From an uncultured Actinomycetes bacterium (lineage in GTDB: Bacteria; Actinomycetota; Actinomycetes; Nanopelagicales; Nanopelagicaceae), in NCBI GenBank assembly GCA_903827945.1, contig CAIKKN010000029.1, positions 1-64,000 on the forward strand: a stretch of DNA of 64,000 nucleotides, given 5' to 3'. This document shows positions 702 to 31,649 of the stretch, piece by piece (positions within the stretch are counted from its first letter, which is position 1; each line of letters starts with the position of its first letter). The translations under genes were made by a program, and so were the position numbers. The notes beneath the pieces are model-generated. The model was not told the DNA's origin, searched no databases, and saw nothing but the letters and a program-made list of their open reading frames with translations.

Positions 702-1283
702 ATGCGATTGATTGTTGCCGGAGCCCTTCTTATTGCTTCGATAACACCCGCTCACGCATCTCCAAATTACGCATTTCCGATATCTGGCTGCGCAGTGACT
801 TATGCCCGAGCCCACCACAATTATCCAGCCACTGATATTTTGACGAAAAAAGGCTGCAAATTCGTAGCTCCAACATCTGGAGTCGTGGATGAGGTAAACC
901 ATGTCGATAAATTTTCATGGAAAACAAATAAAGGCGCTGATCGTGGGGGATTGTCGATCTCAATAGTCGGAGATGATGGAGTTCGCTATTACGGAAGTCA
1001 TCTTTCAAAGATCCCAACAGAAATGGTGCCAGGGTTTCGTGTAAACGTTGGAGACATCATTGGATATGTAGGAAATAGTGGCGATGCGAAAGGACTTGCG
1101 ACGCATCTGCATTTTGGTATTTCATGGCCGACCCCTGCCGGCATTTGGTGGGTCAGGCGAGGTGAGTTATATCCATGGAAATATTTGGATGCATGGAAAG
1201 CCGGTAAAGATGTTTCGCCTTCTAAGGCAGTTGCAACTCTAGAAAAGAAATTAGGAAACGTTCCAAAATTGGTTGGTTATTAA
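702..1283 (+). CDS. Secreted M23-family (LytM-like) metallopeptidase
   Basis: The first 19 residues form a signal peptide (MRLIVAG..., ending THAS-like after PAHA), so the protein is exported. The mature part is a single M23/LytM-type domain: candidate zinc ligands are His38 and Asp45 (HHNYPATD), with His100 (YGSHLS) and His137 (HLHFG). GDIIGYVGNSGDA matches the usual turn before the last motif. These enzymes cleave peptide cross-links of peptidoglycan and act in wall remodelling. A GTG at 696 is also in frame, but the GAGG at 693-696 is well placed for the ATG at 702. No binding domain (LysM, SH3) is present, so the protein is small, 193 residues. Substrate bond unknown. Confidence 0.8.
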   Translation: MRLIVAGALLIASITPAHASPNYAFPISGCAVTYARAHHNYPATDILTKKGCKFVAPTSGVVDEVNHVDKFSWKTNKGADRGGLSISIVGDDGVRYYGSHLSKIPTEMVPGFRVNVGDIIGYVGNSGDAKGLATHLHFGISWPTPAGIWWVRRGELYPWKYLDAWKAGKDVSPSKAVATLEKKLGNVPKLVGY

Positions 1284-1295
1284 TTTGTCCCATGA

Positions 1296-1325
1296 AAAAA
1301 GCCGCCTCTTTCGAGACGGCTTTTT
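1296..1325. terminator. Bidirectional intrinsic terminator
   Basis: A-rich/T-rich flanks surround a GC-rich stem (AAAAAGCCG-CTC, loop TTTC, GAG-CGGCTTTTT) with one mismatch. It lies between the convergent M23 peptidase and cspA genes and has a T tract on both strands, so it can end both transcripts. Confidence 0.85.
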
Positions 1326-1342
1326 CAAAGTAAGTGTTTTAC

Positions 1343-1546
1343 TTATGCAGGGTTTACTGCGTCAGCCTGTGGGCCCTTTGGACCTTGGACGACTTCAAAA
1401 GTAACTGCCTGACCCTCTTCGAGGCTCTTGTAACCGTTTCCTTGAATAGCTGAGTAGTGAACGAAAACATCTTGTCCGCCGCCATCAACCGCAATGAAAC
1501 CGAAACCCTTTTCAGAGTTGAACCACTTAACTGTACCTGTTGCCAT
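1343..1546 (-). CDS. cspA: Cold shock protein (CspA family)
   Basis: This 67-residue protein is a complete cold-shock domain, a five-stranded OB fold that binds single-stranded RNA and DNA and melts RNA secondary structure. The RNA-binding motifs are visible: KGFGFI (RNP1, residues 14-19) and VFVHY (RNP2, residues 27-31). The N-terminus [10 protein letters not shown] is the usual one for actinobacterial CspA. The start is preceded by GAAGGA about 9 bases upstream. A short inverted repeat lies in the leader at 1574-1596, and a long gene-free stretch lies farther upstream. Whether it is cold induced or constitutive cannot be told from sequence. Confidence 0.95.
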
Positions 1547-1865
1547 GTAACTGTATTCCTTCGATAAATGTTGGCACTTAACAAAACATTAAGCGCCGGT
1601 CTTCCTCTTCTGCATTTTTACCGAGAAACCAGACTTGCGTCGAGCTGAACTACGGGTACTGCCAAGCGTCGGACTAGTGGAGAGTCTAACTGCAAAGTCG
1701 ATGGTTTGGGAAAGTACTGAGGCGTATTAAAACGGGGACTAGCGCAACACGCCCGGAAAGCGCATAATCAGCTCCTTGAATCGCCCCAAAGGGCTTTTTA
1801 AACGCGTGATGGACTGGGGAAGGTCGCATCAAGTGCGTTCTTAGAAAGCATGGGTACGAACAGTC
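1547..1865. other. 319-bp gene-free gap, possible structured RNA
   Basis: No convincing reading frame is present on either strand between cspA and the DUF3145 gene. The segment 1626-1730 can fold into a long helix: AAACCA-GACTT-GC near 1626-1638 pairs with GC-A-AAGTC-GA-TGGTTT near 1711-1728. Inside it, GACT/AGTC forms a small hairpin (about 1671-1685). On the plus strand, TTGCCA (1540-1545), 17 bp, GATAAA (1563-1568) resembles a promoter, and a weak hairpin GCCC-CAAA-GGGC followed by TTTTT ends near 1799. A plus-strand RNA of about 225 nt is one reading; a long cspA leader on the minus strand is another. I do not recognise 6S, tmRNA, RNase P or SRP RNA hallmarks here. Confidence 0.35.
1574..1596 (-). 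promoter_or_regulatory. Inverted repeat in the cspA leader
   Basis: GCGCTTAA, loop TGTTTTG, TTAAGTGC (minus strand) forms an 8-bp stem with one G-U pair, about 30-50 bases upstream of the cspA start. It could be a leader hairpin or a repressor site. The function is inferred only from position. Confidence 0.35.
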
Positions 1866-2360
1866 ATGAGCCTGTCTGGAGATCTTCAGATTCACTCCGC
1901 CCCAAGGGCGTTACTTCGCCATATTCAATGGTCTCTCAATTCAATTTTCGAAGAGACGATTCCACTTGATTGGATCACTCAACCTCTTGCAGCTGGCACG
2001 TATTCATGTGAGGTGCAATGGCGAAGTTCTAGCAATAAGGAACGCGCATCAAAAATTGCATCAACCTTAAAAAGGTGGCACTTCATTCGCTTTGAAGTTC
2101 GTGAATTTCCTACAGAAGGCGGGGAAGGAGTTCTCTATCGCGCCACCCCCGACCTTGGAATGCATCAAGCGGTGACTTGCAGCACGGGGGACATCATGAT
2201 TCACGAAAATCGAATTCTTACGATTCTTGGTCAGTCTCACGGATATGAAACCTTACGAGAAAATCTTCAGTCTGCCCTGGGAATTCAATGGGATCGCGAG
2301 CTTGAGAGGTACCGGCAGGGAATTGAATTCGAAAATCCACCTCTGAGGATTAGTATTTGA
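1866..2360 (+). CDS. DUF3145 family protein
   Basis: This 164-residue protein matches the actinobacteria-specific DUF3145 family: an N-terminal IHSAPRALLRHIQW motif (residues 9-22), LDWITQPL, and a later TPDLGM segment with GDIMIHENRI. No catalytic residues or membrane segments are evident and no function is established that I know of. In streptomycetes the family member sits beside the fabD-fabH-acpP-fabF cluster; here it also lies next to that cluster, but on the opposite strand and with the SIMPL gene between. That synteny suggests a link to lipid synthesis or its control (inference). No clear ribosome binding site precedes the ATG, so the transcript may be leaderless. Confidence 0.8.
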   Translation: MSLSGDLQIHSAPRALLRHIQWSLNSIFEETIPLDWITQPLAAGTYSCEVQWRSSSNKERASKIASTLKRWHFIRFEVREFPTEGGEGVLYRATPDLGMHQAVTCSTGDIMIHENRILTILGQSHGYETLRENLQSALGIQWDRELERYRQGIEFENPPLRISI

Positions 2361-2362
2361 CC

Positions 2363-3097
2363 ATGGCTATTAAATCCCGGCAAGTTGTCCTAGTTTCATC
2401 CGCGCTCATCCTTTCATTGGGAATTGGCTTCGCCGGATCTTTAATGGGAAGTGGTTTTGCGGCGCGAACCGGTAACGCAATTACTGTTACGGGATCAGCG
2501 AAGGCATCGGCAACAGCCGACAATGTTGTCTGGAATTTGATGGCGCAAGAGAGTTCTCCAGCCGTTGCAACTGCAGTAAAGAAAGTTGAGCAGAGCGTTA
2601 CTGCTGCTTCTGATTATTTAATAAAAGGTGGCGTTGCTCCTGAATCAATTGAAACCGGCGCGATTAGCACTTATGCGATTCAGCAATACATAAATGGAAA
2701 CCAAACCGGAAAAGTCTTGGCATATCAGGCGACTCAAAACGTCATCGTCCGCTCAAAAGATGTCACCTTAATAAAGAAGCTCAGCGACGGAATTGGCGCC
2801 CTACTTTCAACTGGTGTGAATGTTTACAACAACGGTCCTCAATACTATGTCTCAAATCTTGCAACTCTTCGCCCACAACTTCTCGCTGATGCGATGAAGG
2901 ATGCAAAGTCTCGCGGTGAAGCGATCACAGGCGCGGTCAGTTCAAAACTCGGCGCAGTACTTTCTGTTACAAGTGGACCCGTGCAAGTAACGGCGCCAGA
3001 TTCAGTTGATACAAGTGCCGGTGGAATGTATGACACATCCTCAATTGCAAAGACTGTCACAGTAACTGTTTCAGTAAGCTTTAAGACCTCGAAGTAG
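2363..3097 (+). CDS. SIMPL (DUF541) domain protein, membrane-anchored or secreted
   Basis: Residues about 8-30 form a hydrophobic segment that would serve as signal peptide or membrane anchor, followed by an outer SIMPL/DUF541 domain (ITVTGSAKASATADNVVWN and a C-terminal VTVTVSVSF strand), the fold of the BP26/OMP28 proteins. Family roles are poorly defined; some members assemble into channels or are stress-related. The ATG at 2363 lies just behind the DUF3145 stop (2358-2360), so the two genes are probably cotranscribed. The gene ends 3 bp from the convergent fabF stop, leaving no room for a terminator. 244 residues, a normal length. Confidence 0.75.
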   Translation: MAIKSRQVVLVSSALILSLGIGFAGSLMGSGFAARTGNAITVTGSAKASATADNVVWNLMAQESSPAVATAVKKVEQSVTAASDYLIKGGVAPESIETGAISTYAIQQYINGNQTGKVLAYQATQNVIVRSKDVTLIKKLSDGIGALLSTGVNVYNNGPQYYVSNLATLRPQLLADAMKDAKSRGEAITGAVSSKLGAVLSVTSGPVQVTAPDSVDTSAGGMYDTSSIAKTVTVTVSVSFKTSK

Positions 3098-3100
3098 AAA

Positions 3101-4339
3101 TTATTCGTAAGACTTAAAGATCAGCACGACGTTATGGCCACCAAAGCCAAATGAGTCGTTTATCGCTGCAATCGGACCTGATGGAAGCGGGCGGGGAACG
3201 TCGCGTACAACGTCAACCTTGACTGCATCGTCCAGATTTTCAATGTTAATTGTTGGGGGAGCCAAGCGATGCTTAAGCGCCAAAACTACGAATACTGATT
3301 CGATTGCGCCAGCACCACCAAGAAGGTGACCTGTCATTGATTTTGTTGCAGAAACTGCAACGTGGCTCATATGTTCACCGAGCGCAGCAGTAAGCGCGTT
3401 TGCTTCAGCAACGTCACCAGCAGGAGTCGAGGTTGCATGCGCATTGAGGTGAACAACCTCAGAAAGATCAACACCAGAATCGCGGAGAGCAAATTTCACA
3501 GCGCGAGTAACGCCTGATCCAGATGGGTCTGGAGCGGCAATGTGATAACCGTCAGAAGTCAGACCTTGGCCTGCAAGTTCGCAATAAATTTTCGCGCCAC
3601 GAGCTTGTGCATGCTCAAGTGATTCGAGAATAACAATTCCGCCGCCTTCACCGAGAACAAATCCATCACGGTCTTTGTCGTAAGGACGAGATGCGCGGGT
3701 TGGGTCATCGTTTCGAGTGGAGAGCGCTTTCATTGCAGCAAATCCAGCCATGGGCAATTCGTGAACCGCAGCTTCAACGCCGCCAGCAATAACAATGTCA
3801 GCCCGACCTAGGCGAATCATTTCCATCGCATACCCAATTGCTTCGGCGCCAGATGCGCAGGCAGAAACTGGTGTGTGAACTCCGGCTTGTGCTTTAAATT
3901 CCAATCCAACGTTTGCTGCAGGGCCATTTGGCATCAACATCGGAACAGTGTGGGGTGAAACTAATCGGGCGCCCTTAGTGCGAAGGATGTCGTACTGCTC
4001 AAGCATCGTTGTGACGCCACCGATTCCAGAGGCCACCACAACGCCGAGGCGTTCATGATCAACTTCAGGTGAACCAGCATCAGCCCAAGCCTCACGCGCA
4101 GCAATGACGGCGAATTGTTCAGAGCGATCTAGGCGTCGAATCTCAACCGGCTTCATTACTTCCGAAGGCTCAACCGCTATCGTCGCAGCAAACTTCACAT
4201 TGACGGAAGTCAACATTCCTTCTGGAAGAAGGCGAACGCCACTCTTTCCAGCAAGAAGTGCTTCCCATGTGCTTGGTACATCTCCACCCAATGGGGTAGT
4301 TGCACCAAGTCCAGTTACTACGACGCGGGTCTTAGACAT
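3101..4339 (-). CDS. fabF: 3-oxoacyl-[acyl-carrier-protein] synthase II
   Basis: Condensing enzyme of type II fatty-acid elongation: it joins malonyl-ACP to the growing acyl-ACP with loss of CO2. The Cys-His-His triad of the KAS I/II class is visible: Cys161 (SACASG), His301 (NAHATST) and His338 (TGHLLG), with Lys333 nearby. The glycine-rich C-terminal FGFGGHN motif is present. At 412 residues it is full length. It is the last gene of the fabD-fabH-acpP-fabF operon, 22 bp downstream of acpP. It is the only elongation KAS in the window. Confidence 0.95.
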   Translation of the reverse strand: MSKTRVVVTGLGATTPLGGDVPSTWEALLAGKSGVRLLPEGMLTSVNVKFAATIAVEPSEVMKPVEIRRLDRSEQFAVIAAREAWADAGSPEVDHERLGVVVASGIGGVTTMLEQYDILRTKGARLVSPHTVPMLMPNGPAANVGLEFKAQAGVHTPVSACASGAEAIGYAMEMIRLGRADIVIAGGVEAAVHELPMAGFAAMKALSTRNDDPTRASRPYDKDRDGFVLGEGGGIVILESLEHAQARGAKIYCELAGQGLTSDGYHIAAPDPSGSGVTRAVKFALRDSGVDLSEVVHLNAHATSTPAGDVAEANALTAALGEHMSHVAVSATKSMTGHLLGGAGAIESVFVVLALKHRLAPPTINIENLDDAVKVDVVRDVPRPLPSGPIAAINDSFGFGGHNVVLIFKSYE

Positions 4340-23271: not shown

Positions 23272-23880
23272 ATGTTTCAACGTCCCGAATTTACTGATGT
23301 TCAAAAGCGAGCGATTTATATTGTTTTAGCTTCCTCGATTGCAATTGGATCGCTTTTTGTGACACTTTCACAAGGCAAGGCTTCGGCGCCAAAGCCAATG
23401 GTCTCCCTTCCCCCAATAGAAGCAAAGCCTTCTGTTTCACCTTCCCTTGTGGTGGATGTAGCAGGGAAGGTATTGCATCCAGGTGTTTACACCCTCCCGC
23501 AGGGATCTCGGGCAATCGATGCAATCAAGGCAGCCGGTGGTCAGTTAAAGGGAATCGCTTTGACTGATATCAATTTGGCAGAAATTGTGAGTGACGGTCA
23601 GCAAATAGTTGTTGGGGCCCCAAAAATGGCGGCAAGTTCGAGTAAAAGTAAGAGCGCTGGTCTCGCTAAGAATGTGAAAAATGGAAAGACGCTGGTCCAC
23701 ATTAATACAGCAACTGAATCGCAATTGCAGGTTCTTAAAGGGATTGGCCCCGTGAGCGCCCAAAAGATAATTGCCTACCGGAAGGTGAATGGAAAGTTTC
23801 TCACGGTATCTGACTTCAAAAAGGCAGCAGGGATGGGAGCTGCGAGATTTAACGCTATTCAGGCACAGCTGCGCTTGTGA
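23272..23880 (+). CDS. comEA: ComEA family DNA-binding competence protein
   Basis: 202 residues: a membrane segment near residues 11-33, an SLBB domain (VVDVAGKVLHPGVYTLPQGSR, about 62-120), and a C-terminal double helix-hairpin-helix (VHINTATESQLQVLKGIGPVSAQKIIAYR, about 142-200). ComEA is the surface receptor that binds double-stranded DNA and hands it to ComEC in natural transformation. The comEC frame begins with GTG overlapping its stop by 4 bp (GTGA). Normal for the family. Confidence 0.92.
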   Translation: MFQRPEFTDVQKRAIYIVLASSIAIGSLFVTLSQGKASAPKPMVSLPPIEAKPSVSPSLVVDVAGKVLHPGVYTLPQGSRAIDAIKAAGGQLKGIALTDINLAEIVSDGQQIVVGAPKMAASSSKSKSAGLAKNVKNGKTLVHINTATESQLQVLKGIGPVSAQKIIAYRKVNGKFLTVSDFKKAAGMGAARFNAIQAQLRL

Positions 23881-24650
23881 GCGAAGGCGTCGACCTCAAA
23901 CTTCTTTCGATAGGTGGCGCGTTGTGGATAGGAGCAGCAAGCAAGGGACTTCTGCATTCCTATTGGCTCATCTTTGCTCTTCCTATCTTCTTTCTTATTG
24001 GTAAGAAATTTGGTTCCTTTATCTTGATTGTTGCACTCGTCGGTTCATTTAATATTGGACTTCACCAGATTGCCTTATCACATAATGCTTTGCGTCCATT
24101 CATGGAGAACAAATCTGAAATTACACTTGTTGTTCAGGTTAAGACCGACCCAAAACTCGGAGCGTCAAAAGTCGTTGGTTCAACACTTAGACCTGCCTCA
24201 ACTTCCTTCCTTGCTGCATCAATAAGAATCAATGGAGGAAAAGTTCGATTACCCCTTCGCATCACCACTCCTAGCCGCGTCTCTTTTGTTCCAGGAACAG
24301 TCATCGAATTTAACGCAATCGTGTATGCGACTCAGGAGAAGGCGGTCGCGGCGCTCGTTGTAGCAAGGGGAAGTTTTAAGACAGTTCATGGTCCCAGTGC
24401 TATTGGAAGAGTGACTTCGCAGATCCGCAGATCATTTAAAGAACAAGTTTCTCGGCTTTCTGGAGATGGCGCCTGGCTTATCCCAGGCTTAGTTTTAGGG
24501 GATACATCCCTTGAAACTCCCTCATTTATTGTTGAAATGAGGCGATCTGGTCTGACGCATTTAACAGCCGTCAGTGGAGAGAATTTTGCAATTATTTCCG
24601 CCTTCATCTTATGGATGATGCAGTGGATTATTAAGAAACTCAGAACGTGA
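23877..24650 (+). pseudogene. comEC: comEC N-terminal part, ended by in-frame TGA
   Basis: 257 codons from GTG 23877 hold the N-terminal membrane and DUF4131 region (several hydrophobic helices, then an OB-like segment around LVVQVKTDPKLG) and the beginning of the competence domain, recognised by GLTHLTAVSGENFAII. The frame stops at TGA 24648-24650 right after helix residues WIIKKLRT. Reading through the TGA, the same frame goes on without loss as IIITSFALVGFIYLV and into the second part. ComEC forms the inner-membrane channel for single-stranded DNA. So this is either a recent nonsense mutation, an assembly error, or a gene expressed as two pieces. Confidence 0.85.
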
Positions 24651-24674
24651 ATCATCATCACCAGTTTCGCACTT

Positions 24675-26045
24675 GTGGGATTCATTTATCTTGTGAGGCC
24701 AACTCCCTCAGTGCTGCGAGCTTCAGTGATGACTGCCGCCCTCCTCTTCGCTCGGGCGAGAGGGGAGAGATCGGCCGCGCTCCCATCCTTGGGCCTTGCC
24801 GTTACTGTCCTCATTTTGATCGACCCATTTCAAGCCATTGATCCGGGCTTTGCGTTATCAGTCGGCGCCACCGCAGGGATTCTCCTCTTAGTCCCAATCT
24901 TGAAAAAACATATGCCTGAGCCAGTTGCAATACCGATTGCTGCAACGCTCTTTTGCACACCGATTATCATCGCCATTTCTGGACAACTATCACTCGTATC
25001 TATTCCGGCAAATCTCTTGGTTTCAATTGCTGTCGCTCCAATAACTGTTGCCGGCTTAATTGCCGCGCTGATTTCACCGCTTGCTCCACAACTTTCATTT
25101 CTCACAACTGTTGCTGTGCTGCCATTTTCACAGTGGATTGCTTTTGTCGCACACCAGGCTTCGAGTTTTCCGCTGATCTCTCTTCCAAAAAGTTTTCTGG
25201 GGGCCGCTATTGCCGTGCTCCTCTTGTTCATCCTCTTTCGAAAGTTGTGGAAAATTGGAATTGCAATAATCGCAATTACGGCCACTTTCTTCTTCCATCA
25301 ATCTTTCACCTGGCCGGGGCCTAACTGGAGAATTGTAAATTGTGATGTAGGGCAAGGCGATGGCGAAGTTATTAATTTAGGAAATCACGAGGGGATAGTA
25401 ATTGATACTGGTCCAGACCCGGTGCTTATGGATGCATGCTTGAAGGCACTTCGAATAAAGAGGATTCCACTATTGGTAATTACTCATAATCACGCCGATC
25501 ACAATGGAGGCTTTTCTGGCGCAATCAAAGGACGAGAGGTAGGGAAAATATGGCGCAGCGCATTACAAGGAGAGCACATTTCATTTGAAGCCCCCATCGG
25601 ACATATAGAAATTCACGTTCTTTGGCCTAAGGATCCACATGCGATCTACGATGCGGTTCCAGGTGATGGTTCTTCAATCAATAACACCAGCATCGCCCTT
25701 TTGATAGATATTGCGGGAGTTACATTCTTTAGCGCTGGTGATGTCGAACCACCTGCGCAGGAAGGAATTTTGGCGAGCGGATTGATTCACCCAGTAGACA
25801 TCATGAAAGTTTCACATCATGGATCTGCCTATCAATTTTTGCCACTTCTAGATGCGCTACATCCTAAAGTCGCTTTCATTAGCGTTGGGAGAGGAAATAC
25901 ATATGGCCACCCTGCTCCTTCCACGGTGAGAGCTTTGGAGGACAGGGGAGTGAAGGTATATCGCACAGATCTGGATGGAGCCCTTGAATTTGATGCAGAC
26001 CAGTCAGTTCATACTCGTAAAAAGGAGTTGATCACCTTTGGTTGA
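24675..26045 (+). pseudogene. comEC: comEC C-terminal part (rest of channel and MBL domain)
   Basis: Continues in the same frame as the first part; GTG 24675 is the first conventional start after the TGA. It holds the remaining transmembrane helices of the competence domain (SVLRASVMTAALL, ID-PGFALSVGATAG), then a C-terminal metallo-beta-lactamase domain (about residues 215-456) with THNHADHNGG and VSHHGS, the metal-binding motifs. That domain is thought to degrade the non-transported strand. 456 codons. All domains are intact apart from the single stop, which argues that the interruption is recent or tolerated. Confidence 0.85.
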
Positions 26046-26058
26046 GTAGTCTGTGGTT

Positions 26059-26553
26059 ATGCGCCGGACTCCACTTCTTCTAGCAGCAGCTCTTATCTTC
26101 TTAGCACCAAACGCTTTCGCAACTTCATTCACACTTCCGATACATGCAATAACGCCCGGCGCTATTGATCCGGCGGTAAATCAAGAGAACATTGCTTCGA
26201 CCATTTGCGTGATCGGCTACACGAAAACTGTCCGCCCGCCCGTTTCTTATACAAACGCTCTTAAGTTCAAGCAGCTATCAGGTTCATATAGCCGTTACGG
26301 CTCTACGAATATGAAACTCTTTGAAGAAGATCATCTCATTCCATTAGCGGTGGGAGGCTCCCCTCGCGATCCTAAGAATTTGTGGCCAGAGCCGTGGGGC
26401 GACACAGGTGCAACCGGTGCGCGAAAGAAGGATGTCTTAGAAAGCAAGATGCATGTGATGGTCTGTGCGCACAAAATCACGCTCCAGGCGGCGCAATCAA
26501 TCTTTGCGACTAATTGGTATCAAGGTTATTTGAAGTACGTAGTTGGCAAGTAA
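26059..26553 (+). CDS. Secreted HNH-nuclease-like protein
   Basis: 164 residues with an N-terminal signal peptide (RRTPLLLAAALIFLAPNAFA). The conserved core EEDHLIPLAVGGSPRDPKNLWPEPWG and the following ARKKDVLE (about 92-134) match HNH-like proteins with the DHxIPL...GG...NLWPE pattern; the His of EDH and the Asn of NLWPE would be the core of a beta-beta-alpha metal site. Two cysteines (Cys51 and Cys134 regions) may form a disulfide after export. It lies 13 bp behind comEC, so a role in DNA processing outside the cell is attractive but unproven. GTG 26053 is an alternative start. Confidence 0.7.
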   Translation: MRRTPLLLAAALIFLAPNAFATSFTLPIHAITPGAIDPAVNQENIASTICVIGYTKTVRPPVSYTNALKFKQLSGSYSRYGSTNMKLFEEDHLIPLAVGGSPRDPKNLWPEPWGDTGATGARKKDVLESKMHVMVCAHKITLQAAQSIFATNWYQGYLKYVVGK

Positions 26554-26562
26554 GATTCCGGT

Positions 26563-27510
26563 ATGGCTCTCACACTGATTCAAGGCGCAGAGTCCGTCTT
26601 GGCCGATCGTGCGATTTCGCAAATTCTTGCAAAGGCGCCTGGCGCTGTCATCACGCAATTGGATTGCAATGAAATTGAACTTGGCGTCATCACTGATTCG
26701 CTAGCACCATCTCTGTTTGGTGATGCCCGTGTAGTAGTTATACGTGAAATTCAAGAATTGACGCAAGATGAGTCCGAGGAAATATCTTCTTACTTGGAGA
26801 ATTCCGATGATGGCGTTCATCTTGTCCTCTGGCATAAGGGCGGAGTTAAAGGCAAGGCGCTCCTTGATAAGGTAAAAAAGTCATCACCTGAAATAATTAG
26901 CGCTGAGGCAATTAAAAAAGATGGCGACAAAGCAGAATTTGTAAAGAACGAATTTGCGCGCCATGGCCGTAAGGTTTCTGCTGGCGCGGTCCAGGCCCTC
27001 ATTGATTCACTTGGAAGTGATATGCGCGAATTAGCTGGTGCATGTTCACAACTTTCTGCTGATGTCGAAGCAAGTAAGACAATTAGTGAAAAAGATGTTG
27101 AAAAATTTCAACAGGGTCGAATTGAGACGACTGGTTATGATGTTGCTGATGCCGTGTTGGAAGGCAAAGTTGAAACTGCGCTGATTTCGCTGCGCCAAGC
27201 TCTTTCGACTGGAGTGGATCCCATTCTGATTGTCTCCGCCCTCGCCGCCTCAATACGAACGATGGCAAAAGTCTCATCTTTACCTCGTAACGCTAATTCA
27301 TATCAGGCAGCTTCCTCCCTGGGTCTTCCGCCATGGCAGATAGATAAAGCTCGCCGCCAACTTGCAGGCTGGACTCCCACCTCATTGAGCAGCGCGGTCA
27401 TAGCCTTGGCTGACTGCGATTCTGACATTAAGGGCGCTTCGGCCGACCCGATTTACGCTTTAGAGCGGACTGTCCTGGCTATTTCACGCTCACATTCCGG
27501 CTCAATTTGA
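26563..27510 (+). CDS. holA: DNA polymerase III delta subunit
   Basis: 315 residues of the HolA family, the clamp-loader subunit that opens the beta ring. It has the N-terminal divergent AAA+ domain (DARVVVIREIQELTQDE; KGKALLDKVKKS), the lid and the C-terminal collar region (SLGLPPWQIDKARRQLAGW). HolA sequences are weakly conserved, and the call rests partly on place: comEA-comEC-holA-rpsT is the standard bacterial order. Complete, standard length. Confidence 0.9.
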   Translation: MALTLIQGAESVLADRAISQILAKAPGAVITQLDCNEIELGVITDSLAPSLFGDARVVVIREIQELTQDESEEISSYLENSDDGVHLVLWHKGGVKGKALLDKVKKSSPEIISAEAIKKDGDKAEFVKNEFARHGRKVSAGAVQALIDSLGSDMRELAGACSQLSADVEASKTISEKDVEKFQQGRIETTGYDVADAVLEGKVETALISLRQALSTGVDPILIVSALAASIRTMAKVSSLPRNANSYQAASSLGLPPWQIDKARRQLAGWTPTSLSSAVIALADCDSDIKGASADPIYALERTVLAISRSHSGSI

Positions 27511-30941: not shown

Positions 30942-31649
30942 ATGACCATGCATGAGCGCCAACTTGAAGTCCTCCGGGCAATCGTTGAGGAGTACGTGTC
31001 GACTGAAGAACCGGTCGGTTCCAAGATCATTGCTGCGCGCCATCAATTAGGTGTCTCTCCAGCGACAATTAGAAATGATATGGCCGCTCTTGAAGAGCAA
31101 GGTTTAATTACGCAGCCGCACACGAGTGCTGGGCGCATCCCAACAAACACTGGGTACAGACTTTTCGTTGACAAGATTGAGGAAGTAAAGCCACTTTCCG
31201 TGCCAGAGCGACGAGCAATCGAAAACTTCCTTGTAAATTCTCATGATTTAGATGAGTTGCTCCAACGTACTGCTCGTTTATTAGCTCAACTCACAAATCA
31301 AGTGGCAATGATTCGCATGCCGCACGAAGACCGAGTTGTCGTCGCCGGAACAGCAAACTTGGCTTTATCTATTCATGACAATGCTTCGGCCTTGCATCCA
31401 ATTCTGGAATCACTTGAAGAACAAGTCGTACTGCTTAGACTTCTGTCGAGCGCAGAAGGTTTAATCAATGTGACGATTGGCGATGAGCAACGTGATCAAG
31501 GTTTACAGGCAACAAGCTCGGTAAGTATGGGATATGGACAAGGCGCAATCGGAGTTCTTGGGCCCACGCGAATGGATTACGCGAATTCAATGGCAGCAGT
31601 TCATGCCGTTGCACATTATGTAAGACGTTTTATTTCGGAAGGTAATTAA
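30942..31649 (+). CDS. hrcA: Heat-inducible repressor HrcA, internally shortened
   Basis: 235 residues, about 100 fewer than usual for actinobacterial HrcA. The N-terminal winged helix is intact ([38 protein letters not shown]), and the C-terminal part is clear ([49 protein letters not shown]). The sequence jumps from [14 protein letters not shown] straight to [10 protein letters not shown], so the inserted domain in the middle is missing. HrcA represses chaperone genes at CIRCE operators; none is seen in the window. Its stop overlaps the dnaJ ATG. Two start codons (30942, 30948) are possible. Confidence 0.88.

Follow-up and report, generated by a model that had tools for sequence, protein, structure and literature searches.

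Introduction

Inactivation of comEC in Bacillus subtilis abolishes transformation (PMC8579336) and, in Legionella and Acinetobacter, shifts to nontransformability have been found to be frequent and usually recent (PMC11472951); a recent loss of transformability is, as such, an already known kind of event. The losses in Legionella and Acinetobacter result from mobile-element insertions, mostly in comM, while in Piscirickettsia salmonis transposable elements have broken comEC in all genomes, with comEA and dprA left intact (PMC12955456). The ComEC/Rec2 protein (TIGR00361) combines a Competence domain (PF03772) with a metallo-beta-lactamase (MBL) domain (PF00753) and has solved homologues (30bt, 9vc6 and 9vc9). 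Gain and loss of the MBL domain of ComEC are already known (PMC6299819), with Helicobacter pylori as a further case (PMC5031224). Among freshwater actinobacteria, Rhodoluna lacicola and Aurantimicrobium photophilum are naturally transformable (PMC11577799).

The window, i.e., the whole stretch of 64,000 nucleotides analyzed here, carries a locus that resembles these systems in that an apparently young and inactivating lesion affects a transformation gene while the other machinery, comEA and dprA included, is intact. In contrast to the insertions described above, the lesion appears to be a nonsense point mutation, a change of one base in comEC, found in one genome of an uncultured freshwater actinobacterium. 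The domain order is that of ComEC/Rec2, and the motifs before and after the stop agree as well, but the frame is interrupted at residue 258 and falls under the TIGR00361 cutoff. Like R. lacicola and A. photophilum, the organism is a comEC-carrying freshwater actinobacterium, although of another lineage; transformation was shown in those species, whereas here only genes were read.

Results

The comEC frame extends on the forward strand from a GTG start at 23877 to 26045 (722 codons) and contains one internal TGA at 24648-24650. The two pieces, 23877-24650 (257 amino acids) and 24675-26045 (456 amino acids), share one frame at an offset of 798 bases (3 x 266), and the TGA is the sole interruption between them, exactly at the coordinates of the original prediction, which had read the two frames as one complete ComEC. 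Reading through the TGA gives a single 722-residue protein consisting of an OB/DUF4131-like part (PF13567, 26.1 bits, under the cutoff of 31.6), the Competence channel, and the MBL domain. On the genome, the PF03772 profile scores 141.7 bits against a cutoff of 23 and spans the stop, with "1 TGA" inside an open stretch of 730 residues, so that the stop does lie inside the channel domain, as had been proposed. Taken alone, the N-terminal piece contains the subthreshold DUF4131 match and covers Competence profile positions 1-47, including the HLTAVSGEN motif, and the C-terminal piece covers positions 67-263 together with the Lactamase_B match (PF00753, 34.4 bits versus 22.7). The HNHADH and HHGS motifs are present in the latter, in agreement with the earlier claim that all downstream motifs are intact, and there is no second stop or frameshift in the gene. 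The score for TIGR00361 (154.7) is below the equivalog cutoff of 190, while the cutoffs of PF03772 and TIGR00360 are exceeded. Both halves are collinear with the relatives and join without frameshift or indel; the arrangement is not due to chance, since the 30 residues on each side of the stop are 83-93% identical to those of locus L052 and all relatives that cover the stop column have arginine there.

The gene order leuS-comEA-comEC-HNH-like-holA-rpsT-lepA-hemW recurs without rearrangement in the four nearest relatives, within the limits of their contigs, and holA (26563-27510, forward strand), encoding DNA polymerase III delta, is a conserved neighbor that marks synteny. Upstream, comEA (23272-23880, forward strand) is intact, with SLBB and HHH domains, and its stop overlaps the GTG start of comEC at 23877-23880 (CTTGTGA), a sequence arrangement that suggests translational coupling. 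The internal stop likewise reads C-GTG-A, but with its GTG out of frame with comEC. Downstream, the gene at 26053-26553 (forward strand) probably encodes a secreted HNH-like nuclease, with a weak Pfam match only, a signal-like N-terminal stretch, and an HNH-like motif (DHLIPLAVGG...NLWPEPW), and its product is possibly a surface nuclease. Homologues of this gene are found in 29 of 32 genus genomes, mostly elsewhere, and adjoin comEC only in the closest relatives of the window.

The original prediction had proposed alignment of the locus in related genomes as a check, and this alignment sets the window genome apart. In a sample of the genus comprising 32 genomes, one per species, ComEC is found in 26, and the stop only in the window genome; the frame is open through the stop column in all 25 congeners, which belong to other species (the nearest with 77% protein identity). 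The column is arginine in every covering relative, i.e., these 25 congeners and six more distant ComECs, and it is likewise invariant in alignment A1, where the window row read the TGA as arginine and is therefore not counted. Solved ComEC structures also align across the stop position. In a family-wide search of 296 genomes, 239 of them with a Competence match, no internal stop occurred among the roughly 150 matches listed, which are the stronger ones, the weaker matches, including that of the window genome itself, lying outside this set; a search of viral contigs for the comEC locus found none. The arginine codon is CGA in three of the four nearest relatives and CGC in the fourth, so that one transition suffices to produce the TGA. 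The CpG context from which the prediction derived such a C-to-T change is correct as sequence but adds little to the origin of the stop. In bacteria lacking 5-methylcytosine, CpG has no general mutability.

Several measures bear on the age of the stop. At fourfold sites, the window comEC differs from its nearest relatives by about 70%, which is saturated (a divergence of about 2), and the species split is therefore old. Pairwise dN/dS against these relatives is uninformative, since synonymous sites are saturated, and counts at conserved columns were used: the window protein has no changes at 135 columns conserved to at least 95% in the relatives, which bounds the age of the stop to <0.0104 neutral substitutions per site (95%) on the assumption that selection ended when the stop arose and with a transition/transversion weight of 3. 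The changes unique to the window number 5 before the stop, compared with 4-8 in relatives, and 12 after it, where the four nearest relatives have 13-21; in the tree, the window sequence has an end branch of 0.11, shorter than any other of its group (0.14-0.26). Unaltered conserved columns, ordinary numbers of unique changes, and the short branch together indicate a stop that either arose very recently, is not real, or does no harm. Among the other competence genes, dprA encodes an intact DprA, the pilus locus is intact and contains the genes for a PilB-like T2SSE ATPase and a T2SSF platform protein, and the competence genes examined (comEA, dprA, and the pilus locus) give no hint of an old loss of competence.

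In 13 of the 26 comEC-bearing species of the genus, ComEC is 483-532 residues long in stop-to-stop frames and terminates past the channel domain, with holA starting a few tens of bases further on (loci L002-L005, L007, L010, L012, L014, L015, L019, and L022-L024; L050, L058, L059, L061, and L063 also lack the MBL domain). An MBL domain was sought elsewhere in these 13 genomes and was not found. The MBL-less ComECs form one clade (support 100/100), four close pairs of which have dN/dS values of 0.05-0.09, and keep 60 of the 72 invariant columns of the shared region; by this criterion of selection, the short ComEC is functional.

Discussion

We consider it probable that the window carries a real and very recent nonsense allele of comEC that ends DNA uptake in its carriers. 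By this account, a single recent point mutation would have converted the conserved arginine codon 258 to TGA, and translation would stop once the first part of the channel domain was made, leaving the cell with neither a full channel nor a nuclease domain. Only a minor part of the channel and none of the nuclease domain is encoded before the stop, and cells bearing the allele would be expected not to take up transforming DNA. The stop itself, its isolation, and the conserved arginine that it replaces are plain observations, as are the lack of later decay in the gene and the lack of suppression machinery in the genome; we infer that the population really carries this base and that DNA uptake is lost.

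A smaller but appreciable probability attaches to the TGA being a consensus error or the base of a minority strain in an organism with an ordinary full-length comEC, and the original prediction had itself named a recent stop or a sequencing error, an assessment that the single stop, the invariant arginine column, the absence of relaxed selection, and the open genes of near relatives bear out. One wrong base, or a mixture of strains, predicts an identical sequence: the whole damage is one substitution at a column where every covering relative has arginine, in a gene with no relaxed selection. The genome, at 1.5 Mb in 34 contigs and 95% complete, is fragmented and was apparently assembled from a metagenome or left as a draft, its relatives being freshwater actinobacterial metagenome-assembled genomes (MAGs). 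On the other hand, a clean transition at a codon one step from TGA fits a real mutation equally well, and a comparison of 270 orthologous genes (92,740 codons; 628 kb against the open reading frames [ORFs] of relatives) gave no other true internal stop, defined as one that lies in the real coding frame with good similarity before and after it, which makes a generally error-prone consensus unlikely. The remaining candidate stops were traced to shadow ORFs (antisense or out of frame), to start or N-terminal extensions, or to diverged ends. For rpsT, leuD, and hrcA, considered as second broken genes, the explanation lay in shadow ORFs, in start extensions, or in a deletion common to the clade. 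The HrcA protein encoded at 30942-31649 (forward strand) has 235 amino acids, about 97 residues being absent from the center of its C-terminal domain; this short form is common to most congeners checked and to L033 and L035, while L062 (G013) and L037 have the usual 340-343 amino acids.

It is improbable that comEC is functional despite the stop, either by readthrough of the UGA or by reinitiation at the GTG at 24675-24677, the first in-frame start-like codon past the stop, to give a ComEC in two pieces. This would account for a downstream part without decay, although the youth of the stop explains the same equally well. As comEC itself starts at an overlap with the comEA stop, reinitiation may also occur nearby. 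The full 722-residue protein was modeled with AlphaFold at moderate confidence (pLDDT 70.6, pTM 0.52, 10 sequences), and only the helix boundaries of the model were used; in it, the stop separates two membrane helices of the Competence domain and lies near the start of the helix spanning residues 255-273 and near a short interhelix loop, where a split would be least harmful. The same model, however, places GTG 24675 at residue 267, inside this helix, and a protein restarted there would lose more than half of it; a ComEC working in two such pieces is possible but unlikely. Furthermore, no Shine-Dalgarno sequence precedes GTG 24675 (best match, 3 of 6), and at later in-frame starts the match is never above 4 of 6, so that tolerance by reinitiation, as originally suggested, finds no ribosome-binding site to work from. 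The suggested readthrough fares no better: release factor 2 is intact and scores over its cutoff, the 39 tRNA genes found all have ordinary anticodons, none of them UCA, and every match to tRNA-Sec is under the gathering score, the two best candidates being ordinary tRNA-Ser and tRNA-Arg. The RNA downstream of the stop folds little better than shuffled sequences (z of -1.1), and no congener has a stop or a split at this position. With release factor 2 present, neither tRNA found, and the stop not conserved in relatives, no sign of programmed UGA recoding was seen, and it is very improbable that the stop is fixed and comEC a natural split DNA-uptake channel that works by stop-coupled reinitiation. 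Scarcely credible, finally, is an early stage of a lineage-wide loss of ComEC or competence in the genus: the 13 congeners without the MBL domain do reveal a protein that is evolutionarily flexible here, but their ComECs are conserved, as the dN/dS values indicate, and the Competence domain is kept in 16 of the 16 genus genomes with completeness of 90% or more and contamination of 5% or less.

If the comEC nonsense allele is real, a member of an abundant kind of freshwater bacterium has only lately lost DNA uptake, which fits the idea that losses like this one arise often and are quickly purged; the youth of the stop is what would be expected if alleles of this type do so. The bearing on natural transformation that the original prediction had raised thus extends to this lineage or genome only and is not genus-wide, and our view of competence in the genus is unchanged, as comEC is open in every other species where it is found.

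The MBL-less clade of the genus is more interesting than the comEC stop itself. It is a fresh but clear instance of a known loss of a ComEC domain, and a conserved channel without the nuclease domain bears on how the nontransforming strand gets removed (PMC8579336). A family member of another genus, G122, shows a similar arrangement (locus L112, G122:C8:500-7000; 947-3216), in which comEC runs straight into holA with no MBL domain, and this loss was probably independent.
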